Origin: Pseudovibrio brasiliensis
GTDB lineage: Bacteria > Pseudomonadota > Alphaproteobacteria > Rhizobiales > Stappiaceae
DNA: 64,000 bases
NCBI RefSeq assembly: GCF_018282095.1
Contig: NZ_CP074126.1
Coordinates: forward strand, 2,180,501 to 2,244,500
Direction: 5' to 3'
A program made the translations under genes and the position numbers. Every line of letters starts with the position of its first letter. The stretch's first letter is position 1. The notes beneath the pieces are model-generated. The model saw nothing but the letters and a program-made list of their open reading frames with translations, had not been told where the DNA came from and searched no databases. This document shows, in pieces, positions 2,556 through 24,232 of the stretch.

Positions 2556-2911
2556 GATGATGCCTCCGTCCACACGGCCAGTTCGTTGCCATTGGGATCA
2601 GCAAAGTGAAACCGCTGCCCACCGGGGAAGGAATAGATCTCCTGCAGGATCTTTCCGCCAGCCTCGCGCACTGCCGACAGGGTGCTGGTAAGATCCTTCG
2701 CATAAAGCACCACCAACACACCGGGAGCTTGAACCGGTATGCCGCTTTCGCCGTTAAAGCCGCCTTCAACACCTGCTCCTGAAAAGCTGATGTAGTTCGG
2801 TCCCCAATCCTCAAAGAGCCAGCCAAACACCGAGCTATAGAAGCTCTTGGTCTCCTCGTTTTTAAGCAGAGGAAACTCGATGTAGTTGATGGATTTGTCC
2901 TGATGTCCCAT
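2552..2911 (-). CDS. VOC (glyoxalase/bleomycin-resistance fold) family protein
   Basis: A 119-residue single-domain VOC protein. It starts with the typical INYIEFPLLKNEETKSFYSS helix-strand unit and ends with FHFADPNGNELAVWTE, the conserved C-terminal strand whose glutamate is a metal ligand in this superfamily. One copy of about 120 residues is the usual size for proteins that dimerise to form the active site. The substrate is unknown. It is the first gene of a two-gene operon with the NmrA-like protein and is divergent from a LysR regulator, which probably controls it. Confidence 0.85.
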   Translation of the reverse strand: MGHQDKSINYIEFPLLKNEETKSFYSSVFGWLFEDWGPNYISFSGAGVEGGFNGESGIPVQAPGVLVVLYAKDLTSTLSAVREAGGKILQEIYSFPGGQRFHFADPNGNELAVWTEASS

Positions 2912-3013
2912 CCCATAAGTCCTTTCATCCTGTGAGTGGACCTATTCTATTATTCTTGGCTATTTGGTAGTATCACCTCAATTGGAAAGCATATTTTCAA
3001 ATACGGGAATATA

Positions 3014-3919
3014 ATGCAGGATCTGAACGCCATCGCCATCTTTGCAGAAGTTGCCAAAGCGGGCAGCTTTTCTGCCGCTGCAAAGAATTTGCGCGTGCCC
3101 CTTTCTACAGTTAGTCGCAAAGTCTCAGAGTTGGAGGCGCAGCTTGGCACCAAACTGCTGGAACGCACCACGCGCCGCATGCGCCTGACCGAGATTGGCG
3201 AGCAGTTCTATAAAACTTGCCTGCCGGGTCTTGAGGCCTTCAGAGCTGCTGACAGAGTGGTCGAGCAACGCCAGTCGGCCTTGTCCGGCGATCTGAAAGT
3301 GACGATCCCACCCAATCTGGCCGAAGCGCTCTTCATCCCCGTCATCGGTCAGTTCCGCCTGCAATATCCTGAAGTTCGCGTGCAGATGATTGTCACAGAG
3401 CGCAATCTTGATTTCATTGAGGATGATGTGGATCTGTCGTTCCGTGTCGGTCCTAAGCCAGATTCTGGCCTGACCCTCACCAAACTGGCCACTTACCGTC
3501 ATGTGCTGGTGGCATCGCCCACCTACATTGCGGAGCACGGTGTGCCAGATCATCCCGATAAGTTGCCGGAACACGCGCTGATCGGGTTCGGCTTCTGGCA
3601 AAAGCCTGAAGTGTCCTGGAGCCTGAGCCGCAAGAATGATGAGCGGGTGATCAGGTTCACCCCGGAAATCGGCATCAACGATTACGCAGCCATGCAATCC
3701 GCCATCAAGGCAGGCCTGGGAATAGGGGAGCTGCCATCCATCCTCTGTCAGGACGCTTTGGCAAAGCGTGCACTGGTGGAAGTTCTGCCGGACTGGACAT
3801 TCCCGGAAATCGACCTGCACGCCATGCACACCGGCAAAGAAAACCAGTCCCGCATCGCACGCCTGTTTCTGGAAGCCTGCATCAGTAGGATTCGGCCCCA
3901 ACTGCGGCAGTTCTCTTAG
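3014..3919 (+). CDS. LysR-family transcriptional regulator
   Basis: A 301-residue LysR regulator. The N-terminal winged helix has AIFAEVAKAGSFSAAAKNL followed by the recognition helix STVSRKVSELEAQLGTKLLE. An effector-binding periplasmic-binding-protein fold occupies about residues 90-295. The open frame reaches back to 2936, but the ATG at 3014 fits the family, which starts immediately before the helix-turn-helix. It is divergent from the VOC/NmrA operon across about 100 bp, the usual position for a LysR regulator and its target. Its stop is only about 10 bp from the convergent kinase gene. Confidence 0.92.
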   Translation: MQDLNAIAIFAEVAKAGSFSAAAKNLRVPLSTVSRKVSELEAQLGTKLLERTTRRMRLTEIGEQFYKTCLPGLEAFRAADRVVEQRQSALSGDLKVTIPPNLAEALFIPVIGQFRLQYPEVRVQMIVTERNLDFIEDDVDLSFRVGPKPDSGLTLTKLATYRHVLVASPTYIAEHGVPDHPDKLPEHALIGFGFWQKPEVSWSLSRKNDERVIRFTPEIGINDYAAMQSAIKAGLGIGELPSILCQDALAKRALVEVLPDWTFPEIDLHAMHTGKENQSRIARLFLEACISRIRPQLRQFS

Positions 3920-8513: not shown

Positions 8514-8846
8514 GCATTTCAGCGCAGAAAAAACGTAAAAAACGCAGATCAACGCAAGTTGCGCACATAGCAACGCAAACGCCAGCCTGATCATTCTTCA
8601 CCTCACAAAATTAAAAGTGTGAGCTGCGCATCTGTTGATCCAATTTTTATAAATAAATCAGCGCCCATTCATTTTGTGAGAAATGATTTCACCCAACCCA
8701 TGAAACCTCTTCAGCTCACATTGTGAACCGTCAATTGTCGCAGTTTGAAAGCTGATCGCGCTCCATGTTCCCTTTAAACGCGTGGGGCAATGCTCCCGAT
8801 TTCTGTCCTTAACACCGTAATGGACAAGGCTTTTGGGAGCTGCGCA
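8514..8846. promoter_or_regulatory. Non-coding region with CAACGCA-type repeats upstream of the giant-protein unit
   Basis: About 330 bp with no credible gene. AACGCA hexamers occur at 8541, 8551 and 8572 (spacings of 10 and 21 bases). The copy at 8551 is part of an inverted repeat, CGCAAGTTGCG. AT-rich sequence follows, which could hold the promoter. A related motif occurs upstream of the 1,735-aa gene at 49972. Function is inferred only from the repetition. Confidence 0.4.
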
Positions 8847-11800
8847 ATGGACTTTGAACAACAGGCCTGCAAAGGCCTCTATCTGGCACCAAATGCGGGC
8901 GATAATGCCGGTGGTTTCGCGTTTGTCGTCAGTAAGATAGCTTCCCGCAAAGCAAAACTCCCCAAACGCATCTCCCTAAAAGACGCTCTCACCAATAAGG
9001 CTTATTCAGGTTCGTTCATCTACTGCCCAGATCGATTGGACTGCGATCACAAAGAAGATCAGCAGCAAACACTGGTTTCCGGTTTGCATGAATATCTTAA
9101 AGCTATGCGTGTCCCACGCGGCTTCATGTGGCTGCCCAGAGCTTCAACACCGCTCCCCATTCCCAAAGGCTATCAGCACCAACGCCCAGCGTTTTTCTCC
9201 ATCAACACCGCTGGTACCGAGACAACAAGCAGCCTTTCATACTCGCTCGCCCCAAACCTCACTATCGAGTTCTACTCCGCCGCCTATATCAAGATCTCCG
9301 AGGATGAAGAGAACTTGCAGCTCTCAGAAGCCGCCATTCAACTAGGGGGATATCTGAGTCCCGACACAGGGTCCGTAAGCAAGGCCGACATCCGCTGCTC
9401 CGGCCCGGATCGCGGGGCCATCGTCTTTGATGCCGATTTTGATCGCGATGCGCTGCATGACCAATGGAATTTGGGATTTCAATGGGTTGCAAGCGATCCC
9501 AATACCAAAACCGGCCTCAACGGCCAGCGCTTTGCCTTGGGAACAGGCGACAACGGCGTGCGTGAACCGCTCCCCATGCGGTTGGTGGTAGACGTCACCG
9601 ATGCGTTGAACAACTATCCCACCCATAACCGCAGCGATCCCAACCGCTGCGCCTTCTACTTCCGTCCGGAAGCAGAAACAGGCCACGGCCCAACCCTCAA
9701 CAGCTTCTACCGAACCACCTATGGCGCCACCGTCACCCTGACGGCCATCACCGGGGATAGCTTTGAAAGCACAGGCAACCCGGCAGGTATTATCCTCACA
9801 CCCAGCTATGAAGATCCCTCGACACTTCATAGCTTTATCGCCAGCCCACTGGGAGATTTCCTCATCTGCGCCCCAGCTGGAGAGGGAACAACCAAAGCCC
9901 GCATCATGTGCGGCCTTGGCGGAACCGAGTTTCTGGAAGTGCCGGGAAATGATGAAGATATCGCATCCGCCGCTAGCCTGCGTTTCATCCCAAATCAGCC
10001 CGCTTATGCCCCCGTCTTCCCCTTGCCCAAATCCTCCCCAACAGGCCGCCCAGCCCCCAAAGGAACTCCCCTGAAGGGAAGCTACAAAACATCCTATGTG
10101 GAGGTCTTTCCAGCCGGGTCTGATGCAGAGAGTGCAGGGGATCCAATCACATACGTCGCCCAGCCCCACGGCAGTGCACTGCATGGGTACGATGATGAAA
10201 TCTGGCAGGAAAACAAAAGCTTGCTGGGCACTGTCAGCCCTGCCTACACCTTGCCTTCGAATGATACGCAAGCATTCCCCATGTTCCCGTACAGCGGCAC
10301 GGATGAGGGCGATCCCACGTACTCCCAATGCGATGTGGCGCTCTTTGAAAAGAGCATCATTGCCCCCACACGGCGCAAGGTGATCGCCGCACTTACCAAC
10401 GGTCAATCCAACACCAACACATCTGAAGCACAAGGCACAGAAGCTGAAGCCACCTTAACGACCCCGCTTGGCGTCATTGCAACCCTGCAATCTCCAACAG
10501 ATGCAAACCACTGGAAAGAGGTTAAGCTCGCTCAGATCAAAACGCCGACAAGTTCTGAGTTCGCCTTTAAAGAGCTAAGCCCAAAGTTGATAGAAGCCTT
10601 TCAAACCAATCAGCTTTTTCTGGTTGCTGCCAATCCGTCAGAGCTGGGAGAGGCGGGGACAACATTCTTCAACACGCTCAACATCGAAGACTGGCAGATA
10701 GAAGCCGACGTCGGCAACTCTCCTGACTTCGGTGACTATGCCAACATATTGATCATAAAAGGTATTCGAGGGCCGCTCTACGATCCAAAGGGCGATCCCA
10801 AAGACAACCTGATCTCCAATCCGCAAAAATGGACCCAGAAAGAAACCTTCGCCGCCCCAACAACAAACAGAGACATCACACCAAACCCGGCCCAGCTGGT
10901 TAACGTCTCCTCCTGGCTGCAGGACTACTTCAAAGCCGCACAAGATAATCCCGCTACAGAGTACTTCGGAGACTTCAACCAACTGGCTTCTGATCCCAGC
11001 TGGACCGGTGTGCTTATGCTACGCGCGCGTATCAAATCACCGCCTGAACAGCTCGCTGGTATCGTTGCTGGCGTGCGTGATCCGGCAAAGTTTTATGCCC
11101 ACCACCTCGCCATCCGCATCAATCAGATCAAAGCGGGGACGGACGGCGAGAAGATCGCAATAAAGAAGCAAAGCTCGGTGTTTGGCTTGATTTACTATGA
11201 GGATCCCGACCTCGTGGTACCAAAGGGGGCAGCAAGCCCGGAGCCAGTTGTCCCCTCAGCAACACGCACTTACGATTTCATCCTGCTTTCACTGAAAGTG
11301 CTTTTTGAGAACTCTGCCATCAAAAAGTTCTCCTCCTTCGCTCAGCTTTCCCTGAACAAGGTGTTCGGCAGTGAAGTCATCAGCTCACAGCCGGTTATCC
11401 CCGCTGGCAAAGCCAAGCCCAAGGGTAGTCAATACAAATCCTTGATCATGAAAGCCAGCTATCAGGACAACAACGGCCACCCATCCTACACCATGGCCGC
11501 CCCACAGCCTTACCTCTTCAAAGTTGACAACAATATCCTCCAGCAAACCGAGTTCACTTCCGCCAGAATGAACACCATCACTGGCCACGATAAGGAGCAG
11601 AAAGCCCAAACCGAACCACTTATCCGCTTCGCATTTACTGGTTTTCTCGATTTTGCAATCCTGGAAGCGGATAAAGATCAACTGGTTGACCTGTTTTCCT
11701 ATGGAGCGGTGACCAACCAGAAATCAACTCAGACAGGCCTCGGCTTTGGCAATCTGGCCCTGCAAATGAGCTTTGCTCAAACCAATCCCTATGAAAGCCA

Positions 11801-12455
11801 AAAGATCATCTGGGTCAGCGATCAGCTAACCTTCGATACCAAGAACAGCACCCCGCGCAGCGGCAGTCTGGTCGACACTATGCCATTGCAATTGAAAGGT
11901 TTTGTCAGCTCAACCAGTTCCGACAAAACCCCGGCCTCTCTGGGCTATCTGGACGTCATCACCAACGCAAACCAGCAAGGCCTTTCAAAGGATTGGAACG
12001 CCCTGCAGTTCGAAGTCAGCCTTGGCACCGCAGGCGACCTTGCTGGAAAACTGGGCCTTTCCGCAGATTTCCTGCTCGCATGGTCTCCCGATTCAACAGG
12101 CAAAACCTACAAATCCCAAAGCGCTATCCATATGCCGGGCTCCTCCAACGGCGCGTCGCTCATCAGCCTGCAGAACGTTTTGTCCATGTCCTACGGCCCC
12201 ATCCAGCTGCTCTATACGAACAAACTCAAGGAGCATGAGAACGATCAGGACAAGCAATATATGTTTGTTCTCAATGAGATCGCCCTGAAGTTCCTCGGCC
12301 TCGCCAAGATCCCCCCAAGCGGCGCCACGTCCTTCTATCTGTTCTCTGAGCCCGAAGAGAACGGCAAAAGCTCTGATGAGACCACAGGTCTGGCCTGGTA
12401 CGCGGTCTACAACAACGAGCCTCCCGAAAACTGCAAAATACCCGCAAAGAAATAG
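8847..12455 (+). CDS. Large uncharacterised protein, first of a giant-protein pair
   Basis: The protein is 1,202 aa if translation starts at 8847; the frame is open back to 8790. The ATG at 8847 is preferred because a GGGAG motif lies about eight bases upstream. No signal peptide, membrane segment or catalytic motif was recognised. The sequence is soluble-looking, rich in beta-type alternation, serine, threonine, proline and asparagine. The C-terminal quarter (about 950-1180) has repeated hydrophobic strands such as YGPIQLLYTN and FVLNEIALKFLGLAKIPP. These recall, from memory only, the strand pattern of very large bacterial DUF6603-type proteins. It precedes the 3,914-aa gene by 32 bp in the same direction, so the two are probably co-expressed and function together. 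Confidence 0.85.
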   Translation: MDFEQQACKGLYLAPNAGDNAGGFAFVVSKIASRKAKLPKRISLKDALTNKAYSGSFIYCPDRLDCDHKEDQQQTLVSGLHEYLKAMRVPRGFMWLPRASTPLPIPKGYQHQRPAFFSINTAGTETTSSLSYSLAPNLTIEFYSAAYIKISEDEENLQLSEAAIQLGGYLSPDTGSVSKADIRCSGPDRGAIVFDADFDRDALHDQWNLGFQWVASDPNTKTGLNGQRFALGTGDNGVREPLPMRLVVDVTDALNNYPTHNRSDPNRCAFYFRPEAETGHGPTLNSFYRTTYGATVTLTAITGDSFESTGNPAGIILTPSYEDPSTLHSFIASPLGDFLICAPAGEGTTKARIMCGLGGTEFLEVPGNDEDIASAASLRFIPNQPAYAPVFPLPKSSPTGRPAPKGTPLKGSYKTSYVEVFPAGSDAESAGDPITYVAQPHGSALHGYDDEIWQENKSLLGTVSPAYTLPSNDTQAFPMFPYSGTDEGDPTYSQCDVALFEKSIIAPTRRKVIAALTNGQSNTNTSEAQGTEAEATLTTPLGVIATLQSPTDANHWKEVKLAQIKTPTSSEFAFKELSPKLIEAFQTNQLFLVAANPSELGEAGTTFFNTLNIEDWQIEADVGNSPDFGDYANILIIKGIRGPLYDPKGDPKDNLISNPQKWTQKETFAAPTTNRDITPNPAQLVNVSSWLQDYFKAAQDNPATEYFGDFNQLASDPSWTGVLMLRARIKSPPEQLAGIVAGVRDPAKFYAHHLAIRINQIKAGTDGEKIAIKKQSSVFGLIYYEDPDLVVPKGAASPEPVVPSATRTYDFILLSLKVLFENSAIKKFSSFAQLSLNKVFGSEVISSQPVIPAGKAKPKGSQYKSLIMKASYQDNNGHPSYTMAAPQPYLFKVDNNILQQTEFTSARMNTITGHDKEQKAQTEPLIRFAFTGFLDFAILEADKDQLVDLFSYGAVTNQKSTQTGLGFGNLALQMSFAQTNPYESQKIIWVSDQLTFDTKNSTPRSGSLVDTMPLQLKGFVSSTSSDKTPASLGYLDVITNANQQGLSKDWNALQFEVSLGTAGDLAGKLGLSADFLLAWSPDSTGKTYKSQSAIHMPGSSNGASLISLQNVLSMSYGPIQLLYTNKLKEHENDQDKQYMFVLNEIALKFLGLAKIPPSGATSFYLFSEPEENGKSSDETTGLAWYAVYNNEPPENCKIPAKK

Positions 12456-12487
12456 CCTGAAACGTCAACCATCAGTGGTGCAGGAAG

Positions 12488-15400
12488 ATGAACGAGCACA
12501 GCCCAATCGAACCCTTCGAGCCTGCCGTCCTACCTCAGGACGAAGCCCTGTCTTCCGACCTCACCAACCTCATCCAGCAGTTCATGTCGGCTGCCGATGA
12601 CCTGAACACCTCACTCTCCAGCAATATCATCAGCAAACTTACAGGAGTTCTGAAGGGCAAGAAGCTACGGTATTTCGTTTGGCAGGATGAGAGATCCGGC
12701 AGCGTTGCAAACACAATCAACATGCTCCGCTCAATGATTTCCCTTGGATTTCAGGTAGATGTCGAACTGATCTACAACAGCGCCCAGAAAACACTGCTGC
12801 AAGAACTTGCCGAGCTGCTCCCCGGTTTCGACCCGTCAACCCGCGCCCCATACACATTAAACGGCATAACAATCACATTCTTCGCCTATGAAGAAACAAC
12901 CGTCGGCGAGATCACCCATCGCCAGGTGCATGGCCTTACTGGCAAAATGCCTCTCTGCCTGTGTGGTGGAGGTGACATTCCCAACATCGACAACACAAGC
13001 ATCGCAACGGCCGTAAAATGCGATTACTTCGTTCTGCTGCAACCCTATCTCTGGTCGGCAGAAAACAGCGCAAGCAACTCCAAAATCATCCTTCCGGGTC
13101 TGAAACGCTCCATAAACCTGGATGACCAACTCGTCCTGCAAGGCGATCAGTTCGCCTATCGCAGTTTCAAACAAGATCTGTCCGCCAAACCCAACTGGAC
13201 ATCACTTCAGAAAATCCCGAATGCCAACAAAAAGGCCTTAAGTGCTGCTCAGAACATCACAAATGCCATAGGAAAGTCAGCACAAAGCGGCATTGGGTTT
13301 TTCCCAGTCGCAAGCCTGCCCAGCTCCTCAAGAGACAAAACCTCTCTGGTCGGCAGTGCAGAGGGGATCGCCTTCGAGCTGATTGCCGCCGCCACTCTGC
13401 TGCAAAAGCAAAAGGCATTTTCCAAAAAGCCAGTTGTCATCGCCATTCTGGATGATCTCTCAAGCTCTACATGGCAAACACTGGGGTATTATTTCCCGGA
13501 AAAAAATGCGTCTAATCAAAGCTCAATGAGCAATCAGGATGCGCTCACAAAGAATGTGAGTGCTTACTGCAAGGCACAGCAACTATTCCGAAATACCCCA
13601 GACTCAGACACCGGGATCTACTTGAACAAGGATCTATCCGGCGCGGCTGGTAAAGCGTTCCTGAGCAAACTGAAGCCCGGTTCAACTGTCGTCACCACAT
13701 TGCAAGGCTTGCCGCCGGAAGCGATCAACCACCTGTATGCCGTAGCCACTTTGCCCGGCGTTCTGCAAGGCACCAAGACCTCCAACCTCGCAGTAAATCT
13801 GGGCAAGCCATTCTTCAAGCTAACTGACTTCACAGTAAACCCGTATCCCAGCACCTTTGGAAACGGCAGCGGAAAGGCGGCAAGCAGCACAACACCAACA
13901 ACCGCAGCGCTGCTCGATATCTCCAAAAACCAGATCGCCCTGGGTCTTTCTGCATTTCAGGAAGGCTTCAAGGTCTCCATGCCGCCAAACGAGCTCGCCC
14001 AATCGCTTGCGGAGATCTCCACACAGTTCAAATCCGGAAAAGGCGCGTACTTCGAATACTTTGACGGCCTCAACAAGTACTACACTGCGCCGCAGAACGA
14101 TAAGCTACTGCAAGCACTCGGCTTTCTTGCTGCAAGATTTGCCCTCGTCAAAATGGCAGGCAGCATCTTCTCCGATTTGAGCAAGCTGAAGAAAGCCCTT
14201 CATGAGGCTACGAAGGACGGCAAACTGTCACTCATCCCTAATGTTGTGAAAGAGGGTCCGTTTCACCAGTTCCTCACAAGCATCTTAGGGGGCGGAGGTC
14301 TCAGTATCGGCTCCGCAAAAGATCCGGTTTCCATCAAGCCTGTCTATCGAGTAAAGAAGCTCAGCCAAATCATCGTTGAGGGCAAAACCTCCGATTTCCT
14401 CGGCACAGAACTCACTGTCACGCTCACTGTCTCCAATGTAGGCCGCGTCACGAAGAAAAACGGACAGAATTACAAGGTCCGCTTGGAAGTTGACCTGCAA
14501 AAACTCTCGCTGCCCGGTGTGGAATGGTTCGCGCTGGAAAACACAGGCTTATTCGCGGAGTTCTCAAGCAATGGTGCAAGACTGACTGGCGGCGTGCAAA
14601 CCTCCGTAGAACTTGGTGAAACGCTGGTGCCATTCCAGATGAACTTCCCAAGCTCGGCCAGCAACAAAATGGTGGTGCAGGGGGCGTTCGCCAATGAAGC
14701 TGCTTCATCGCTGAATGCGGTGTTCGCTCTCATCGGCGGCATGAACTTTGCTAACTCAATCCCGTCAGAACTCGCTGATCTGAATGAGCTAAACATCGAC
14801 GGACTGCGGTTCAACTACGATTCAACCAAGAAGACCGTTGAGAGTTTCCAGATCTCTCTGAAGGATAACAAGGAATGGGATCTGTTTGGCGGGCTGAGCA
14901 TCAAGAATCTGAGCTTTGATGTGACAGCCCAGCAGCCGACAGGAAGTCGCAAAGCCAGTTGGGTCGCCTCGACACAAGCCGTGATCGGCACGAGTGCCAA
15001 TGCTCCTACGCTCGATGTCTCCGCCACCTATCCGCAAACCACAGTCACTGCAACGCTGAACCCGGAGGGACCAAGCTTACCGGTCGACGATCTCGTCGAT
15101 GCACTGCTGCCGAAAGGCTATCACCTCAATGTGGGCGCCAATATCGCGAACCTGTCTCTGGAGTACACCCCAGGACAGAGTAGAAACAACAGCACATACG
15201 CTGTGCAGGCTGGAGTGGATCTTGAAGGCTGGGAAATCTCTCTGGCCCCGGCAAACTTTGAGCTGAAGGACATCTATATCGATGTCAAAGGCATCGGAAG
15301 CAACTCCACTGGCACCATAAAAGCCTCCACAATGCTGTTTGAGGGGCTACCGCGTGTAAAGCCAGTGCCGGTGAGTGTCTCAGCAACCTTTGACACACAA

Positions 15401-18400
15401 AACCATCTCTGGACCTTTACAGGAGAGCAGGGCGACACGCCCATAAAGATCAGCCAGATCATTGCAGCTTATCTCGGCAGTGGTTGGGCAACAAAAAAGT
15501 TCGATCTGGATGTTACAGGCCTAAATGTCACGTTCTCAACGGGTAGCGGAAAAACCGCTTCCAGCTACGAGTTTGGTGGCACCGTCAACTTTTCAAATAA
15601 AGGCAAGAAAAAAGTCAGCTGGCTACCTGAAAACGTCACCTTCACCGCAAATATCGGCAACACTGGCGGCAACGAGTTTTTGCTACCCACCAACAACGCC
15701 CGCATTCCCTTGTTGAATGAACAGGATGAGATCGTTTTTCTGGAACCAACTCGTTCTCTTCCTCGCTTAGAAAAATCCTCCAACGACAACCAGTATGCCC
15801 TGCTGACAGCTGATATTGTCTGGAACAAAATCGACCTTACAGCGTTCTACCAATACGGAAAAAAGAAGTCCTCCTTTGGCATTCAATGGGGTGCTTTGAG
15901 TGCTGAGGTCAATGAGCAACAGATCGCTACGATAAAGTTCACGCAGGCAACCACTCTTGGGGGCATTATTGAAACCTTTGTCGAGTGGATGACAGGCGCC
16001 AGATTTGGCCTTGCCGCACCGTTTGATTTGCTCAACGACGTGAAACTCTCAGACCTTGAACTCACCTGGGATCTCAAGAACGAGAAAGTGTGCTTCAAGA
16101 TTGATATTGGACCTATTGATCTGGTGTTTGCCTCAGTTAAAGGTATCTCTCTGAGTTATAATAGGAATTCTGGTGTCTGGGTCGAGTTGGATGGTGATTT
16201 CCTTTGGTCGGTTCACAGTTTGGAAAAAAGTGCGAAACCTAAGTGGCGCGCCGACCAACCCTCAACAACCCCAAGCCCCGGCGGAGCAGGAAACAAATAT
16301 CTGGACTTGAGGCTTCTTGCAGGTGGTCAGCATGTGAATGTCAAAGGGCTGCAGCAGGTCAGTACGGTGCAGCAAGCTGTTGATATTCTTGGCTGCCTTC
16401 CTGAACCATCAGCAGACAAAATCCCGAGTATTGGCTTCGATGGAGACATCAACTGGCTATTCGCCACGGACTTTGGTGTTTTGCGCATCGACTCCAGCAA
16501 GGAACTTGGACAGGAGCATTGGGGTGAGTTGGAGAAGGGCGGCGCTCAGTATGCGTTCACGCTGCAAGTCGTTCTGACGGATCCCAGTCTCTACGCCTTG
16601 CGTATCGCGTGCAGCGGAAAAGCAGCCAAAGTGTTCTCTGGCCTCGACTTTCAGGTGATCTACAAGAAGGTCTCAGAAGGGCTTGGCAAGTTCTCTGCGT
16701 CCATCGAACTGCCGGAGATTATGCGCCGCATTGATGTGGGGGCCGTCACCATCACGCTGCCCACGTTTGGCATTGAAGTCTACACCAACGGAGACTTTCA
16801 GATCGATGTGGGCTTTCCGTGGAACAACAACTTCTCTCAGTCCTTCTCCGTTGAGGCCATCGTGCCTCCGGGCATCCCGGTCAAGGGCGGTGGCGGGTTC
16901 TATTTCGGCAAGCTGCCTGCAGCCTCTGTGAAAGGCCTTCCCGTTTCCTCAAGGGGTTTCTTCAACCCCAATTTGGTCTTCGGCTTCGGAGCGCAGCTGG
17001 GGCTCGGGAAGTCCTTTGAAATGGGCATTCTGAAAGCAGGTTTCAGCCTCACGGCCTTCGGCATTCTGCAAGGCATTCTGGCCAAATGGAATGCATACCA
17101 AGACCAGCATGCCGACAGCAGCAATGCCTTATCTTTGCAGGGGGAGTACTTCTTCTCGCTCACCGGCACCTTTGGCATTATCGGCAAACTCTACGGTTCC
17201 ATTGACTTCGCCATCATCAAAGCCTCGGTGAACATCAGGATCGAGGTTAGCGCCCAGATCAAGCTTGCGTCCTATGAACCAATCCCGATCACCGTCGCAG
17301 CTAAAGTGGACGTCAGCGCCTCTGCAAGCATCGATCTCGGCTTGTTCACCATCAAAGTAAGCTTCAGTTTCTCCGCCCATGTGCACACCACCTTCACATT
17401 AGGCGCGCTCCAGAACCCGAAAGACGCACCGTGGCTGGATCATTCAGAAAGCCACGAGGGGATGTTGGCATCACCACTGGCAGAGCGTCTGGCTCTCTAC
17501 AGCCGCTTTCCGATGCTGCCAGCTGGCTATGAAGCAGAGCCCATGGAGTTCAACTGGAGTAATCTGAGAGCGGCCGCAGATCCATCAAAGAACCGACTGG
17601 AAATCCATCTGGGCTTCGGCTTGACGCTGGCCAAAGATGAAAACTGGCCGCCAGTTGCGCAGGGCCGCCCACCACAGCTACCGTGTTATGTGGCCAATCT
17701 GTTCATTGAAGCGCCAGCACCAGCAAAACCACAGGACACCGAACTCTTTGAGAAAGCCTCTGGCGTGCAGCTTGACACGGCCTTTGAAGCTTTGGCAAAG
17801 ATGACTACGCGTTGGTTAATCGCAGCCACGATGGGTGATGAAGAGGTGACGGCAAAAGAGGTCGATAGTCACCCCATCAGTGCGGTTGAGATCAACTCTA
17901 TTCTGGATGGCCTGAGCACTCTGGAAACCTCTCCTGATGCGCTCACCGAAAGCGATATCTCGAAGTTCCTTCAGCAACAGTTCCAGCTCGACATTGCAGT
18001 GCCAGCAAGAACCGGTGAGGCACAGGCCACTTACTTCCCGATAGTGCCGGACCTCAGCCTCGCGCTGAAAGTGGGCGACAAAACCACGCTCTCTTACAGC
18101 TTTGCCGAGTTCAACAAAATCAGCCCCAACTATCTGCAGGACTTAACAAATTACTTTAACCAGCTAGCGGTTCAGGTGGAAAAAGAAGGCGGGAAAGATC
18201 CTTCTGAAACCACATCGGAAAACGCGCAAATATCAATTGCATCATACATTTACCAGAACTACTTCATGCTGATCATGAAGCAGATGATGCAAAGCCTTCT
18301 GGATGGTCTGCGTGATTTCAACTATCCGCTTGTTTCAGGCAAAACCCCAGATGGCATCGTGGCTTGGGTGAAAGGCAAAGGGGGAACTGGTTACACGCTT

Positions 18401-21400
18401 GCGGACCTCTTCAAGACCAACGGAACTCACCCACTGACAAGCAATGTTGAGCTTACAATCCCAACCGCATCATTGGTGGTGCCAGCAGGCAAAACCCTCA
18501 AAGAGCTTGCTGAAAAGAACCAGTTCAGCGCGAAGGTCAAAGTCGCCGAGCTCATCTGTAAAAACAAAGACGTCGCTGGTCTGCTGATCAATGGTGAGAA
18601 GATCACCTACACAGCATCTGATGGCACCAAAACCACCCACACAACCTCAGGCAGTGAAACCTTCTGTTCCGTGGCCAAGGCTTTGGGTGTTTCACTGGAA
18701 GAGCTGAGCACCAACAGCTCAATCCCCACCCAGCCAAATCTGCTGTTTGCCGGCACAACATTGCAACTGCCTGAGTTCACACATAAGACAGGCGCCGCCG
18801 ATACGCTCTCTTCAGTTGCGCAGAAGTTTGAGACAAAAGCAGATGCACTCGCTCTGCCAGCAAATGGAACCATCACAGACCTGTTCGTCGTGCCTTCCAG
18901 TGGCTCTTCAAGCAGCCTCAGCATTGCGCATCTGCCACAGTTCTGTGTGGGCGAACTCATCAAGGAAGTGCAGCGCACAGGCGGCATAACCCATCTGTCC
19001 GGAATGGCATCGCGCTATTACTTCCACGGCATGCGCCTGCCCACAAAAAATATTGCATCATTGAAAGAAGGCATCACGCCGCTGAAAGAGGGCATGTGGG
19101 TTGAAAAAGATGAGGCTGGAAAACTCAAGCTGCCAGAAGAAGCTGGCCTGTTCGCGCTTTCAGGGCAGCAGATCCCCATCCCAACACCGCTCACCACCTC
19201 TTTCTCCATGCTTCTCGGCAAGCCTGAGAATGCCGATTGGATCACACTCGGCAACGATACAAATCCGCTGAAGTATCCGGTGGTAGTACCGAAGGATGAA
19301 GAAAAAACCAGCAAAGACTATGAGCGCATTGAAGCGATAATCAAATGCGGCGCAAAAGGGTATCTGCCAGCAGGACCCTGTCAGCTTTCTTTGCTTGCAA
19401 GCGTTGATCAGCAGCCAAGCGCATTCCCAATCCCGCATTACATCAACTGGCAGAGCGCAAAGCCAATTCCGGTTCCATCCAGCTCCAGCACACAGAAATC
19501 CAACTCCCAGTACCTGCGCCTCTGGACACTCTCAGGAGCATTGACAGCATTGGGAGCGCAGGATGGTGAAGCCCTGCCGCCTCACATGATCGTCGAGCAG
19601 GCCGCTCAGGATGCCGCCACCGGCAAAACCATCAAAACAGCGCTGGTAAACTTCGGCTGGACATCAACCATCGAGTTCTCCATCAAAAAATTGCCTCCAC
19701 AACACAAGAAAACGGGGAACGAGGCGACAGGAACATCGGATAATGCGCTGAAAACAACCTATGAACTGAACGGTGTCAGCTCATCCGGCACTGTCGTGCT
19801 GGAGCGTATGCTGCAATCGCTGCCTGATGACCAAAGTTTCACCTTCATCACTCTCGGTTACACCAAAGGCTCTCAAAGCAGCGGAACCCATTTTGTCGGT
19901 GAGGGCGGCAGCAACGTCACCTTTGGCATCTCGCAGACGAACCTTTCTACCGTCACAAATCCGGGCGGCGAGCTTTTCCTGCAAGAGAGCAGCCAAACCA
20001 CAGGTCCAACGCTGCTCAACACGCCCATGAACCTTGTAAAACTGCTGTGGGAAGCAGGTATCACCAACTCAGGTGGGTTCTACCTCTACTACACCGCTGA
20101 TGATGGAGAGACGGGCCTCCCGTCAAACATCTTCAACGAAAAGGGCGAGGCCACGCTAACGCTCGTGATCATTCACAAGGACCAACAACACCTGCATCCT
20201 TACATCAACGGCCTTGTAACAGCACAGCCGCTGGCAAGCTCTGAAGCGTCACTGACAGCTTCGGCCAAAGGCGAGTTGGTGGAGCACAGCGTGCAACAGG
20301 GCGATACTCTGGCAAGCATCGCACGGCTCTATCACTCCAATCTCAACTCACTCATCGCCAACACTCTGTCGTCGGAAAACGCTGAGATTGAGCTGACCAA
20401 AGGCAAAACAATCCTCATAGAGCAGGGCACTTACATGGTCCCGCAAAGCACCAGTGCGCCCGGAACTTCCTTTGCCAGCATTGCCCTGCGCTTTGGCACG
20501 ACCGTCGATAAACTCACGAAGATCAACCCACTTCTAAAAGGTGAAAGCCTGCCCGCAGGCACACCTTTGCGATTGCCTGCCATTGAACTGACCATTGCCG
20601 CGAAAACCCTCAGCAACGATCTGATCAAACTGACGGACCTGAAGAAAATCGCAGAGTACTTCGGCACAGAGCCGATTGTGGTCGCCGTCAGCAATGCGGA
20701 ACAGGAGAATCTTCTCGTGGTCGGCCAGACTCTCACCGCCCGTACTGGTCCACTGTCGGTGCAGCCGGGTGAACATCCCGGTGTTCAGGCCCTCAACGCA
20801 AAGCGAGCCAAACCGCAACCAATCCCGTCAGGTAGTACCGGAACAGATTACGCCAAGGCTCTGCTTCTGAACAACTACAGCCTGCTGGCCTATCAGGTGA
20901 CAGAAAATCAGGACTTTAAATCGAGCAATATGGGGCTTCCCATCGGTGCCTCCGGCAAGTCCACATCACCTGATGAAAACAAAGTGAGATATGTACTGGA
21001 AGCATCAGCTGGCGATGCAGAACAGTATCATGGCGCTATTTCTTATCTGGGTCTTGTGAAAGATAAAGGAAAGGACAAGCCGCTCAACCCTTACATCGCA
21101 AACGGCAGGCTCCTGCAAACCAAACTCGGCTGGAACGATTATTACGGCAACACCATCCTTTCCACGCTGGATGATTACGCCGATCCAGCCGGAAAGCTCA
21201 GCAACAAGCCCGCTCTGCAAGGCTACACCGATCAGATTATCCCGCTCTCCCAATGGCCCTCTACATCCGCCAGTTGGACTGTTGAAGTGAGCAAGGATCC
21301 TGAAAAGACCTTCACGCTCATGGTCTCTTTCAGCTTCGATACCAGCCCCTTCATTCCGCAAAAAGGCCAGAACCCATCCATAACCCAGCAACGCGCGCGT

Positions 21401-24232
21401 TCAGCTCTGGTTATTGTGGAAGATATGCTGGCTCAGTTTGAAGACCCCAACGGGTTTGAAGTGGAGGTCGATACAACACTGGTCAGTGATACCTATGCGC
21501 TGACAGCTGGCGAACTGAAGCAGCTCATTGGTTGGTGGCAGGGCATTCAAAAGTTCCTGCAGGAACACAGTGCTGCGGAAGGAAACGAAACAGACCCCAA
21601 ACCAGTCATTCCATCCCTGAAACTTCCAGTCACAATAGCGCTTACGGATGTCCGCACTGATCAGGTCTTCGAGCTGGTGACAAAGCTCATCTTCAAACGC
21701 ACCCATGGAATCGCGGTAGGAGACTACGCTGCAGACCCTCTGGCGCGTTCAGTGGCAAACACGGTCGCGATTAAAACCAATGTTTCCGCCCCAAACCCCT
21801 CTGACAAAGAGCCGAAGAAGCCCAAACCGGATATCCTTGCAGAGTTCGCCGAATGTGTTGCAAAAGCTGTTCAGGGGCCAGACTTCCAGATGATGGTCGC
21901 GTCCGGCATCAACCGCTACGCTCCGTCTGCGGGCCTGTCTTCCAACGCCACATGGGCGGTCAGAGTGGGGCGTCAGGAGGGAGATCCAATCTCGTTCCGC
22001 ATCACTGATGAGTGCCAGCCCGAACTCTACGCGCCATTGCCAGTCAGCAACACACTGATCTCCCGCAGTGCCTCCGTCTATCCGTACACCGACCTTGATG
22101 ACTTTGATCCCGAAACGGGCAAGTTTACAGGCACGCCAGTCAAAAGCACATTCTCCAACGTGGAATTGGATGTGTGGCTCAAGCAATACTTCGACTTCTT
22201 CGACGGTCTGCTCTCGCCAAAGTATTCATCCTCCATCCTGTTCATCGACCATCATCTGCAGTCCCAGGCAGTAAAAGATGGAATGCTGAAACCCACTGGC
22301 TTTATGGAGCAACTGGCAGATCAGAAAGAAAGCCTTGCCGGGATTACCTCCAACATGCTCGCGCCGATTTATCAGGATGGGGCGAGCTCCCGCTTAGCCT
22401 CAGCGCAGGAAACCTTCCGCCAATCACTGCTGAATGAGCTCTCCAACCTCTACACCACGCAAGCAGCCATCTCCTTCGGTGCGGAGGTGACCGCCAGCAT
22501 TCCACTGCAAGGAAACGAGGAAACACCGCAGCTTTACGGCAACATAAACCTCAACAGTATCGAAAACTGCCCGCCGCAAGCTGAGGAAAACGCGAGCCCT
22601 ACAACCAGCAAGATGCTCGCCAGCCTGATCTCCATGACCTCCCCAAAACTGAAGCTTCAGCAGGGCGAGGAGCAACCACTCACATTTCTGCTGGAAGCCT
22701 CAGAGAAACTGGGGGAGAACACAGAGTGCCTCTGTCTGGATTTGTGTTACAAAGTCACGGCTCTGGAACACCAGATCAGCCCAGTTAAAAACATCGAGGG
22801 CTATAAGGCGTCTAGTTGGTTGTCGCCAATCACAGCCGAAGACACGCCGGTGCTGGAAAAGTCTTTGGGCTCCTTCAAACTGCCAATCCTGCTGCGCAGC
22901 TTCCCCGAAACCCCGCGTATGGTCTCCCAAGCTGGCCCAGCCTTTGATAAGAAGGCCACGCAGCTGAGCAAAATCACCCGATGGGATTATGAGTACACCT
23001 ACGGCCTGAACTTCCACTACTTACAGGACAAAGCCCACGGTCAGATCCAGTTTAACATCAAGGACAAGCCTGCAAACGAACTCGCAGGCTTCCTCGATGC
23101 CTTCGCAGAGCTCGCCCAGTTCATTTCCGTTGCAAATAATCTCTCTGCTATTCTGGACCAATACGTACCCGTCATCAGCGCTGCAAATCAGGACGACGCG
23201 GCAATAGAAGATGCTGCCAGCGTTCTATCCGCAATCATCAAAATCAACGAGGACATCATAAAAGCAGCCTCAGCCGCTGGAAACCTGAGCATGCTGGCAG
23301 CCCCGGCAACTAAGGAAGGAGCAGAAAGCTACAAGTTCAGCATTCTGGAGGAAAATCAGGCGCATACCTCAAAGAATGAAGGCACAGCAGAGCGATGGGT
23401 GGTCAAACTCATTCTGGAAGACTGCAACAGTCTCAAAGGCCTCACCGGAGAGCCCACCGTCGAAATCCCCGAATGGACCAGCCATTTAGCCTCTAAGGCC
23501 TGCGAAAAGGGCAAGAAAACCTACACCTACTATTACACGCAGGAGAAAAAGAAGAAGACCACGTACCTGACGCAGGACATCGCCCAGTCCATCAGTGATC
23601 GGCAGGTGATCCTATCGGGGATGCAGGTACTGGCCCGACAGGATGCCATCGCCTCCATGTACATGACCCGAAACAACAACATCTACGGCAAAATCAACGA
23701 GGGCTTTGTCTTCAAGACGCCAACAGCCACCTTCAAAAACCCGTTCCATCCAACTCTCTCCAGCTATCAGCCACTTAACATCGCGTGGCTGGATGAGCCG
23801 AAGGGGGAGCCGAGCAAATGCAGTCTGACCCAGCATCTAAACCATCTGTTCTACGCGTTGTTCAAGGGCGAGTTCATTGGTGACATTACCCTCCAGCTCA
23901 ACATCGGCTATGCCTATCACCTTACTGAGGGCCTGACAGAGGAGCCGATCGATCTGCCAATCGCACTTCTGCCGCCAACCCCGATCACCATAACCACGAA
24001 AGGCAAGCCCAAAGGAGACATCATCAAGAACCTTGCCAAGTCCATCACAGCTTGGGCTGAGATGCACAAACCGTCCTGCAACAACGCCAGACTAACCTTC
24101 GCGCTCAACATCATGTCCAATCTGACGGAAAACCCGATGCCCTTGCTCAACCTGCAGGATCTCTATCTGTGCACCGATGACATCGAACCGCCGCTTCCGT
24201 CCTATGAAGGGCAAATGGAAGAGGCTAGATGA
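12488..24232 (+). CDS. Giant beta-rich protein with LysM-like repeats, function unknown
   Basis: One uninterrupted 3,914-residue frame. Residues about 1-600 look alpha/beta, with GKMPLCLCGGGDIPNID. About 600-1650 is beta-rich. It includes two related modules about 120 residues apart, near 864 (LPKGYHLNVGANIANLSLEY) and 985 (GSGWATKKFDLDVTGLNVTF). It ends in a glycine-rich and then strictly alternating hydrophobic segment (about 1459-1640). LysM-like motifs lie near 1998, 2050, 2098, 2597, 2660 and 2712, for example HSVQQGDTLASIARLYHSN. The remainder (2760-3914) is unassigned. There is no signal peptide or membrane helix. LysM domains bind peptidoglycan or chitin in known proteins, suggesting envelope contact, but no secretion genes are adjacent. 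The resemblance to DUF6603-type giant proteins is a recollection, not a search result. Confidence 0.9.
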   Translation: MNEHSPIEPFEPAVLPQDEALSSDLTNLIQQFMSAADDLNTSLSSNIISKLTGVLKGKKLRYFVWQDERSGSVANTINMLRSMISLGFQVDVELIYNSAQKTLLQELAELLPGFDPSTRAPYTLNGITITFFAYEETTVGEITHRQVHGLTGKMPLCLCGGGDIPNIDNTSIATAVKCDYFVLLQPYLWSAENSASNSKIILPGLKRSINLDDQLVLQGDQFAYRSFKQDLSAKPNWTSLQKIPNANKKALSAAQNITNAIGKSAQSGIGFFPVASLPSSSRDKTSLVGSAEGIAFELIAAATLLQKQKAFSKKPVVIAILDDLSSSTWQTLGYYFPEKNASNQSSMSNQDALTKNVSAYCKAQQLFRNTPDSDTGIYLNKDLSGAAGKAFLSKLKPGSTVVTTLQGLPPEAINHLYAVATLPGVLQGTKTSNLAVNLGKPFFKLTDFTVNPYPSTFGNGSGKAASSTTPTTAALLDISKNQIALGLSAFQEGFKVSMPPNELAQSLAEISTQFKSGKGAYFEYFDGLNKYYTAPQNDKLLQALGFLAARFALVKMAGSIFSDLSKLKKALHEATKDGKLSLIPNVVKEGPFHQFLTSILGGGGLSIGSAKDPVSIKPVYRVKKLSQIIVEGKTSDFLGTELTVTLTVSNVGRVTKKNGQNYKVRLEVDLQKLSLPGVEWFALENTGLFAEFSSNGARLTGGVQTSVELGETLVPFQMNFPSSASNKMVVQGAFANEAASSLNAVFALIGGMNFANSIPSELADLNELNIDGLRFNYDSTKKTVESFQISLKDNKEWDLFGGLSIKNLSFDVTAQQPTGSRKASWVASTQAVIGTSANAPTLDVSATYPQTTVTATLNPEGPSLPVDDLVDALLPKGYHLNVGANIANLSLEYTPGQSRNNSTYAVQAGVDLEGWEISLAPANFELKDIYIDVKGIGSNSTGTIKASTMLFEGLPRVKPVPVSVSATFDTQNHLWTFTGEQGDTPIKISQIIAAYLGSGWATKKFDLDVTGLNVTFSTGSGKTASSYEFGGTVNFSNKGKKKVSWLPENVTFTANIGNTGGNEFLLPTNNARIPLLNEQDEIVFLEPTRSLPRLEKSSNDNQYALLTADIVWNKIDLTAFYQYGKKKSSFGIQWGALSAEVNEQQIATIKFTQATTLGGIIETFVEWMTGARFGLAAPFDLLNDVKLSDLELTWDLKNEKVCFKIDIGPIDLVFASVKGISLSYNRNSGVWVELDGDFLWSVHSLEKSAKPKWRADQPSTTPSPGGAGNKYLDLRLLAGGQHVNVKGLQQVSTVQQAVDILGCLPEPSADKIPSIGFDGDINWLFATDFGVLRIDSSKELGQEHWGELEKGGAQYAFTLQVVLTDPSLYALRIACSGKAAKVFSGLDFQVIYKKVSEGLGKFSASIELPEIMRRIDVGAVTITLPTFGIEVYTNGDFQIDVGFPWNNNFSQSFSVEAIVPPGIPVKGGGGFYFGKLPAASVKGLPVSSRGFFNPNLVFGFGAQLGLGKSFEMGILKAGFSLTAFGILQGILAKWNAYQDQHADSSNALSLQGEYFFSLTGTFGIIGKLYGSIDFAIIKASVNIRIEVSAQIKLASYEPIPITVAAKVDVSASASIDLGLFTIKVSFSFSAHVHTTFTLGALQNPKDAPWLDHSESHEGMLASPLAERLALYSRFPMLPAGYEAEPMEFNWSNLRAAADPSKNRLEIHLGFGLTLAKDENWPPVAQGRPPQLPCYVANLFIEAPAPAKPQDTELFEKASGVQLDTAFEALAKMTTRWLIAATMGDEEVTAKEVDSHPISAVEINSILDGLSTLETSPDALTESDISKFLQQQFQLDIAVPARTGEAQATYFPIVPDLSLALKVGDKTTLSYSFAEFNKISPNYLQDLTNYFNQLAVQVEKEGGKDPSETTSENAQISIASYIYQNYFMLIMKQMMQSLLDGLRDFNYPLVSGKTPDGIVAWVKGKGGTGYTLADLFKTNGTHPLTSNVELTIPTASLVVPAGKTLKELAEKNQFSAKVKVAELICKNKDVAGLLINGEKITYTASDGTKTTHTTSGSETFCSVAKALGVSLEELSTNSSIPTQPNLLFAGTTLQLPEFTHKTGAADTLSSVAQKFETKADALALPANGTITDLFVVPSSGSSSSLSIAHLPQFCVGELIKEVQRTGGITHLSGMASRYYFHGMRLPTKNIASLKEGITPLKEGMWVEKDEAGKLKLPEEAGLFALSGQQIPIPTPLTTSFSMLLGKPENADWITLGNDTNPLKYPVVVPKDEEKTSKDYERIEAIIKCGAKGYLPAGPCQLSLLASVDQQPSAFPIPHYINWQSAKPIPVPSSSSTQKSNSQYLRLWTLSGALTALGAQDGEALPPHMIVEQAAQDAATGKTIKTALVNFGWTSTIEFSIKKLPPQHKKTGNEATGTSDNALKTTYELNGVSSSGTVVLERMLQSLPDDQSFTFITLGYTKGSQSSGTHFVGEGGSNVTFGISQTNLSTVTNPGGELFLQESSQTTGPTLLNTPMNLVKLLWEAGITNSGGFYLYYTADDGETGLPSNIFNEKGEATLTLVIIHKDQQHLHPYINGLVTAQPLASSEASLTASAKGELVEHSVQQGDTLASIARLYHSNLNSLIANTLSSENAEIELTKGKTILIEQGTYMVPQSTSAPGTSFASIALRFGTTVDKLTKINPLLKGESLPAGTPLRLPAIELTIAAKTLSNDLIKLTDLKKIAEYFGTEPIVVAVSNAEQENLLVVGQTLTARTGPLSVQPGEHPGVQALNAKRAKPQPIPSGSTGTDYAKALLLNNYSLLAYQVTENQDFKSSNMGLPIGASGKSTSPDENKVRYVLEASAGDAEQYHGAISYLGLVKDKGKDKPLNPYIANGRLLQTKLGWNDYYGNTILSTLDDYADPAGKLSNKPALQGYTDQIIPLSQWPSTSASWTVEVSKDPEKTFTLMVSFSFDTSPFIPQKGQNPSITQQRARSALVIVEDMLAQFEDPNGFEVEVDTTLVSDTYALTAGELKQLIGWWQGIQKFLQEHSAAEGNETDPKPVIPSLKLPVTIALTDVRTDQVFELVTKLIFKRTHGIAVGDYAADPLARSVANTVAIKTNVSAPNPSDKEPKKPKPDILAEFAECVAKAVQGPDFQMMVASGINRYAPSAGLSSNATWAVRVGRQEGDPISFRITDECQPELYAPLPVSNTLISRSASVYPYTDLDDFDPETGKFTGTPVKSTFSNVELDVWLKQYFDFFDGLLSPKYSSSILFIDHHLQSQAVKDGMLKPTGFMEQLADQKESLAGITSNMLAPIYQDGASSRLASAQETFRQSLLNELSNLYTTQAAISFGAEVTASIPLQGNEETPQLYGNINLNSIENCPPQAEENASPTTSKMLASLISMTSPKLKLQQGEEQPLTFLLEASEKLGENTECLCLDLCYKVTALEHQISPVKNIEGYKASSWLSPITAEDTPVLEKSLGSFKLPILLRSFPETPRMVSQAGPAFDKKATQLSKITRWDYEYTYGLNFHYLQDKAHGQIQFNIKDKPANELAGFLDAFAELAQFISVANNLSAILDQYVPVISAANQDDAAIEDAASVLSAIIKINEDIIKAASAAGNLSMLAAPATKEGAESYKFSILEENQAHTSKNEGTAERWVVKLILEDCNSLKGLTGEPTVEIPEWTSHLASKACEKGKKTYTYYYTQEKKKKTTYLTQDIAQSISDRQVILSGMQVLARQDAIASMYMTRNNNIYGKINEGFVFKTPTATFKNPFHPTLSSYQPLNIAWLDEPKGEPSKCSLTQHLNHLFYALFKGEFIGDITLQLNIGYAYHLTEGLTEEPIDLPIALLPPTPITITTKGKPKGDIIKNLAKSITAWAEMHKPSCNNARLTFALNIMSNLTENPMPLLNLQDLYLCTDDIEPPLPSYEGQMEEAR

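Follow-up and report, generated by a model that had tools for sequence, protein, structure and literature searches.

What might two adjacent giant genes do together when most of their length matches no named family? The question is raised by a same-strand gene pair, here called A and B (Table 1), in a stretch of 64,000 nucleotides of Pseudovibrio DNA (the window) from a genome of 6.03 Mb. A preliminary description of the window, made from its letters, had presented two giant proteins with no recognisable function that may form a large cell-surface or particle-like complex. Below, loci are numbered with L and genomes with G.

Table 1. Features of the gene pair in the window (B numbers are residues of protein B)
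Feature	Position	Strand	Remarks
Gene A	8847..12455	+	1202 aa; partner protein without named family
Spacer A/B	12456..12487	+	32 bp; AGGAAG directly 5' of the B ATG
Gene B	12488..24232	+	3914 aa giant protein
GT-B-like domain (predicted), exchangeable slot	12644..14152	+	B ~53-555; AlphaFold model and VIA-align
Helix-plus-strand modules (predicted)	14285..15937	+	B ~600-1150; secondary structure of predicted model
Conserved core	15935..17407	+	B ~1150-1640
First LysM block	18380..18937	+	B ~1965-2150; by profile
Second LysM block	20225..20767	+	B ~2580-2760; Pfam and profile
Conserved C-terminal region	20768..24229	+	B ~2761-3914; conserved columns

Reading frames and genomic surroundings

Both frames were present without interruption and the 32 bp gap between them was reproduced, in agreement with the preliminary description. 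The frame of A has its earliest opening at 8790 (1221 aa) and an in-frame ATG at 8847 (1202 aa). Given that the frame opens one codon 5' of the 8847-equivalent in six of the seven other Pseudovibrio loci (in the seventh, L010, A is split into two frames), that the nearest A homologs among the matches listed are 1195-1202 aa in length, and that GGGAG sits immediately 5' of 8847, the originally proposed start at 8847 is favoured over 8790. Nonsynonymous change was far below synonymous change within Pseudovibrio for A and for segments of B: dN was 0.13 and dS 1.49 for A (window against L007), and B segments in four Pseudovibrio pairs gave about 0.04-0.24 where dS was finite, the dN/dS ratios being rough because dS is close to saturation. 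Combined with full-length homologs across many phyla, this constraint indicates that the frames of A and B are not chance, and the selection that had been claimed for them is borne out. Neither a signal peptide nor a membrane helix was seen in A or B on inspection by eye.

A Pfam scan of 20 nearby frames matched genes of ordinary metabolism, transport and regulation, including AraC, LysR and response regulators and, upstream, a molybdopterin-binding oxidoreductase. The 3' side carries, on the opposite strand, a racemase-like gene (next after B), an oxidoreductase and a TRAP transporter. In line with the preliminary description, no secretion gene was found for A or B, and no defence gene or phage tail gene was recognised among the scanned neighbours. 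No immunity gene was found for A/B and no shared downstream gene was noticed across L002-L006, the 3' flank being seen for few loci only. The 64-kb window gave no match to Rfam at gathering score and no tRNA. It does hold another giant gene (49972-55179, + strand, 1735 aa) without a Pfam match at E 0.001, whose product reads as long helical repeats, probably coiled-coil, and differs from A and B by eye; a 643 aa protein (38655-40586, - strand) matches DUF5054 and, weakly, glycosyl hydrolase 38. In another Pseudovibrio, G012 (contigs C17/C18; L121, L122), the ortholog of an AAA gene of the window lies just 5' of A, and the molybdopterin oxidoreductase sits on a different contig from A, indicating that the gene order around the pair varies within the genus.

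Pairing and distribution

A scan of one genome per species gave 39 A loci. In 37 of them B comes after A in the same orientation, and the contigs of the remaining two stop at or inside A, so that adjacency holds in 37/37 loci with room for B. The synteny search that the preliminary description had proposed therefore places the pair far beyond the source strain. Of 72,556 records in a plasmid collection, 8 matched A, and the B core matched the identical 8. (L063 and L082, the latter in G275, entered the counts as one, since their equal length of 692,456 marks them as the same plasmid.) The A family and the B core are moreover fused, in L070 into one protein of 1725-1740 aa and in L079/L080 into one of 3339 aa. 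With the L070 fusion as query, 46 protein matches were obtained (self included), 44 of which cover at least 85% of the A-core stretch.

Divergence of the parts is also correlated. Across 23 GT-bearing loci, pairwise distances of A and core correlated at r = 0.91, and those of the GT domain at r = 0.66 with A and 0.63 with the core; none of 2000 permutation runs attained any of the three values, to all of which common ancestry of whole loci contributes. (Besides being confined to the 23 GT rows, this comparison dropped L009, L013, L018-L020, L036 and loci outside the alignment used.) Of the parts compared, the GT domain has the lowest mean identity (0.24); the values are 0.39 in A and 0.51 in the core. 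Taken together, adjacency, shared plasmid records, fusions and correlated divergence support, at the level of sequence comparison, the view that A and B belong together as one two-gene system, as had been claimed.

Protein searches returned at least 106 matches for A and at least 89 for residues 1-1900 of B. The 39 loci span Pseudomonadota, Bacteroidota, Bacillota, Actinomycetota, Cyanobacteria, Spirochaetota, SAR324, Eremiobacterota and two Methanosarcina; Clostridium, Streptomyces and Paenibacillus also carry the system. Some of these loci are metagenome bins, and M. spelaei MC-15 is a named strain. Identity to the window in one Methanosarcina copy is 36% for A and 53% for the B core. Viral contigs searched with A and phage records searched with the B core gave no match. 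Presence is patchy (own genome included each time): 9/16 genomes in the genus, 5/385 in the class and, by the B core, 3/398 in the phylum. Patchiness and plasmid carriage suggest an accessory trait, and the distribution pattern suggests horizontal transfer.

Within Pseudovibrio, the A and B frames are open over the length available in the six loci besides L010, and a P. denitrificans record (P0107) holds a B of 3914 aa that is 93% identical. In L010, the draft of P. denitrificans JCM 12308, A is in two frames and B in five, and in G004 A is in two pieces; both cases may reflect assembly errors or decay. A clean empty site was not shown in the A-less Pseudovibrio genomes: G002, G003 and G015 keep the ortholog of the upstream flank gene, and a close ortholog of the downstream one was not found in them. 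An A relative of 901 aa that stops early (L072; G160:C1:9399-12101) had no B core within the 20 kb examined and is an orphan or remnant.

Protein domains, the enzyme slot and upstream genes

Protein A had no match in Pfam, PADLOC or PHROG, and only sub-cutoff matches in NCBIfam (E about 0.08). Against the PDB, a sequence search of A gave no match and its profile gave three, at E 0.28-0.57. Both predicted structures are parts of B. Homology between the beta-rich segments of like style that had been described in A and B found no support, and the idea that the two are duplicates of one fold was dropped: comparison of their profile segments gave nothing at 25% probability or above. The statement that the pair has no recognisable function is right only in part, as B has LysM and a predicted GT-B-like fold. 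These two features, the exchangeable slot and the genes found upstream in relatives had escaped the preliminary description. Pfam found nothing in A and B except LysM types in B, and LysM was also the only family above cut-off in Pfam or NCBIfam. The suggested resemblance to DUF6603 giant proteins found no counterpart among the Pfam matches to A/B at E up to 1; any likeness would lie in the style of the beta-rich repeats.

LysM (PF01476) scored 47.2 bits in B against a cut-off of 20.9 (E 2.2e-12) in two stretches, the best at 2661-2697, and the second block matches the first by profile with a probability of 98.4%. An endolysin match in PHROG falls at B 2043-2117, in the first block; all PHROG matches of B (lysis families and one transglycosylase) lie at LysM stretches. 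The B profile gave 18 PDB matches at E up to 5, of which 17 lie on LysM stretches; the exception is 7jrq (E 1). When B segments were compared with each other, only LysM-containing stretches matched besides shared segment ends. B thus belongs with LysM-domain proteins by the PF01476 cut-off, but the blocks make up only about 9% of it, and the family name is uninformative about the remainder.

Residues ~53-555 of B are predicted to have a two-lobed GT-B fold (model 1, pLDDT 78.6, pTM 0.77), which VIA-align supports; Foldseek alone found no significant match for this model. Sequence searches of the domain (Pfam, NCBIfam, PDB profile) did not identify it and gave only scattered matches, each family in 1/26 members and the best at E 0.003, and its PDB profile listed viral capsid chains at E 0.05. 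The GHQ and FEGQ motifs of most relatives are GSV and LQGT in the window: the E of FEGQ is kept in 22/26 rows and the H of GHQ in 19/26, where the window has Q and S. The following modules (B ~600-1150) each combine, in the model, one helix with mostly five or six strands, at a helix spacing of about 120 residues. In the core, 1463-1640 forms long amphipathic strands in model 2 (pTM 0.42), and 1385-1640 aligns with arcs of membrane beta-barrels. The amphipathicity of the strand faces was 2.39 against 1.08 +- 0.14 in shuffled sequences. Whole-chain Foldseek matches of model 2 had an rmsd above 27 A, and the fold searches, whose lists contain LptD, TonB receptors and apolipoprotein B, were chiefly informative for B 53-555 and 1385-1670.

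In some loci the GT-B position is organised differently. The GT-B part is a gene of its own between A and the remainder of B in L029 and L044. An EEP-family gene lies between A and B in L005, L045 and L064 (PF03372, E 5e-5 to 2e-4, slightly below cut-off). L069 instead has its EEP gene (E 0.007), whose product shows an export-type signal by eye, on the upstream side of A with one gene in between; the Pfam matches of all four proteins are under the curated cut-off. GDxN and SDH are invariant in the four EEP rows, which align poorly outside the C-terminal motifs, and none of the PDB matches of the L045 protein was better than E 0.34. In L063, L065, L071 and L081 the interval between A and B is taken up by one or two MBL-fold genes. 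A Pfam scan of five MBL proteins (the second L081 copy was left out) matched three, weakly, to PF00753, at E values from 5e-5 (the sole one above cut-off) to 0.0045, and gave no match for the L063 protein or the second L071 copy. HxDxDH, GDAT and PHHG are common to all six aligned MBL rows; we take these and the invariant EEP motifs to be metal-site motifs. PDB profile searches with the MBL slot proteins gave no match at E up to 0.01. The L065 protein, the only one scanned against PADLOC, matched RTasMBL (1.2e-7), PDC-M48B (1.8e-7) and LmuA (4.3e-7), and weakly Avs1a (0.048). A slot enzyme of GT, EEP or MBL type is absent from L004, L006, L030, L070 and L079/L080.

A core tree of 43 rows held 30 GT, 4 EEP, 4 MBL and 5 enzyme-free labels. 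(L003, L007, L008, L010, L011, L023, L031, L040-L042, L072, L080 and L082-L085 were omitted as near-copies, fragments, broken frames or loci with no B.) The slot label changes 7 times on the best tree against a mean of 12.5 for shuffled labels, so the labels are clustered. Most non-GT rows belong to a single divergent clade in which several branches are long, three of the four MBL rows are near-identical, and the strongly supported inner branches (11/40) force just 2 GT-label changes. Exchange therefore appears real but infrequent: judged from this tree, the enzyme module has been exchanged to a modest extent, with GT-B dominating. In the Paenibacillus plasmid locus L004, a gene for a Nal1 C-terminal-domain protease, presumably trypsin-like, lies directly 5' of A (18655-19635) and is possibly another enzyme type of the system.

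A family of small proteins (C, about 200-300 aa) is encoded 5' of A in 28/38 loci with upstream sequence, and 17 of these 28 have two or three copies of it. C is absent from all seven other Pseudovibrio loci, and it had no match anywhere in the source genome in a search that found it in 3/3 control genomes. Among further loci it occurs in the plasmids L002 and L003 and is absent from the divergent ones (all those listed beyond L045). Its fold search gave antibody-domain matches only, at E 0.12 or worse, so that Ig-like, read from the sequence pattern, is a weak label for C; PHROG had no match for it. By eye, the first C copy has an export-type signal in 5/30 C loci (L002, L014, L015, L022, L028). 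Other upstream neighbours of relatives include a Peptidase_S74 (chaperone of endosialidase) protein directly 5' of A in a SAR324 bin (L038, 3135-4397), Laminin_G_3 in L005 and a weak fn3 match in L063. Such adhesion-type neighbours, together with LysM, are compatible with the cell-surface or particle-like complex proposed at the outset. The upstream proteins at L069:14006-15304 (-; 432 aa) and L063:9527-12688 (1053 aa) share YSFDP...LxPGMxLRxE by eye and may represent one more accessory family, belonging to the EEP and MBL subtypes.

Possible roles and comparison with known systems

The scaffold, the LysM blocks, the exchangeable enzyme and the adhesion-type neighbours give the system the look of an effector carrier, and we consider a toxin-complex-like carrier of exchangeable effectors the most likely use of A and B, with a probability of about 0.4. 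A and the B core would build a large beta-rich scaffold, and the N-terminal part of B would serve as its enzyme slot, GT-B-like here and EEP (DNase I-like) or MBL in some divergent relatives. The LysM blocks would bind a GlcNAc-containing glycan (peptidoglycan, chitin or similar). The scaffold would carry the enzyme, accessory proteins and LysM would direct the carrier to its target, a cell or glycan surface, and contact with a membrane, or passage through it, would fall to the amphipathic beta core. The elements of this proposal that were computed are the pairing, the fusions, the exchange at the slot, LysM, the GT-B-like slot fold and, in a weak model, the amphipathic long-strand core; from these we infer formation of a complex, export or release independent of a signal peptide, the glycan bound, membrane contact and an antagonistic purpose. 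Against the carrier stand the lack of any secretion gene, immunity gene or signal peptide found for A/B, the modest exchange, the loci with no slot enzyme of the three types, the divergent loci devoid of C, and the occurrence in Methanosarcina, which has no murein. The GT-B domain of the window also has other residues at positions kept in most relatives. Given these altered positions and the missing C genes, the Pseudovibrio copy may be specialised or weakened.

The same LysM blocks could instead anchor a producer-surface or matrix complex to the cell's own wall or matrix glycan, with the slot enzyme modifying that glycan or extracellular polymers (DNA, phosphoesters). The adhesin-like neighbours of relatives and the export-type signals on some first C copies point this way, but A and B show no signal peptide by eye, patchy presence and plasmids suggest an accessory trait, and the murein-free Methanosarcina fits poorly, so that we regard such a surface role as rather unlikely, if well worth considering. 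The enzymes point elsewhere: EEP and MBL are effector types, and defence systems exchange effectors. A and B could thus be the sensor or scaffold of an intracellular conflict system, for example an anti-phage one, with the slot enzyme as effector, in line with the PADLOC matches of the L065 MBL protein and with patchy, partly plasmid-borne presence. PADLOC, however, returned 0 families for A, B, the C of L014 and the EEP protein of L064, so that no named anti-phage system accounts for them; the only Pfam domains of A/B are LysM types, which are normally extracytoplasmic; and no defence gene was recognised beside the pair among the scanned neighbours. An intracellular system of this kind therefore seems unlikely.

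The module pattern, the amphipathic strands and the appearance of LptD, TonB receptors and apolipoprotein B among the listed fold matches would also suit a conduit for lipid or glycolipid. Modules and strands would then line a hydrophobic groove or barrel, with the GT-B domain adding sugar to a lipid-linked substrate. The replacement of GT-B by nuclease-like enzymes fits such a conduit poorly, and bridge-like lipid transfer proteins are not among the fold rows listed, which excludes nothing; we think it improbable. About equally slender are the chances that the pair is a decaying or neutral passenger in Pseudovibrio and active only elsewhere, a case compatible with the other readings. The altered GT-B motif positions, the missing C, the 7/16 Pseudovibrio genomes without A and the broken frames of the L010 draft would agree with decay, but the frames of the other six Pseudovibrio loci are open and strongly constrained, and B is of full length in P0107. 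In the most specific form of the carrier reading, which we put forward only tentatively, A and B would represent an unnamed cross-domain class in which a LysM-anchored, membrane-active beta shell with an exchangeable enzyme of GT-B, DNase I-like or MBL nuclease-like type is released independently of a signal peptide and attacks other cells.

No known kind compared here fits, and on the sequence evidence A/B appears to be a previously unnamed two-protein system spanning bacteria and archaea. No paper on it was found in open-licence PMC. The terms LysM and giant are absent from two Pseudovibrio genome papers (PMC3806328, PMC4811931), and a paper on lipocone proteins mentions LysM in a single passage and does not name Pseudovibrio (PMC12419801). 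Should the carrier reading be correct, the system would embody a new principle of delivery; as a surface or defence machine it would still count as a large kind that is little explored. Its parts lend themselves to direct tests, thanks to the fusions of A with the core and to a slot that can be separated.

Several known systems share single properties with the pair. EarP (GT104, the protein-arginine rhamnosyltransferase of EF-P) resembles the slot domain in fold only: membership in its family was rejected for want of a sequence match by Pfam, NCBIfam or PDB profile, and the slot domain sits inside a 3914-aa protein with altered motif positions in the window. In a weak model (pTM 0.42), B matches only arcs of outer-membrane beta-barrels (TonB receptors, LptD, SlpA); B shows no signal peptide by eye, and among the carriers of the system Clostridium, Streptomyces, Paenibacillus and Methanosarcina have no outer membrane of the Gram-negative kind. 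A contractile injection system or phage tail was set aside, with PHROG matching only at LysM, no match in viral contigs (A) or phages (B core) and no tail gene among the scanned neighbours of the window. Tc (ABC) toxin complexes are alike in giant subunits without ordinary signal peptides, a beta-rich shell, an exchangeable enzyme and a patchy distribution. Identity with them was rejected because Pfam matches to Rhs, TcA, TcB and TcC are absent from A/B, and the enzyme module, C-terminal in TcC, is here either N-terminal in B or encoded between the two genes; A/B also has LysM and occurs in archaea. Polymorphic toxins (Rhs, CDI) likewise combine a conserved carrier with exchangeable enzymes, as A/B does with GT-B, EEP, MBL or none, and differ in module position, in the immunity gene, none being found here, and in exchange, which is modest and clustered here (7 changes in 43 rows). 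In the part available, a survey of polymorphic toxins mentions other giant proteins, does not name Pseudovibrio, and counts LysM and laminin-G among the adhesion domains of these toxins (PMC3482391).
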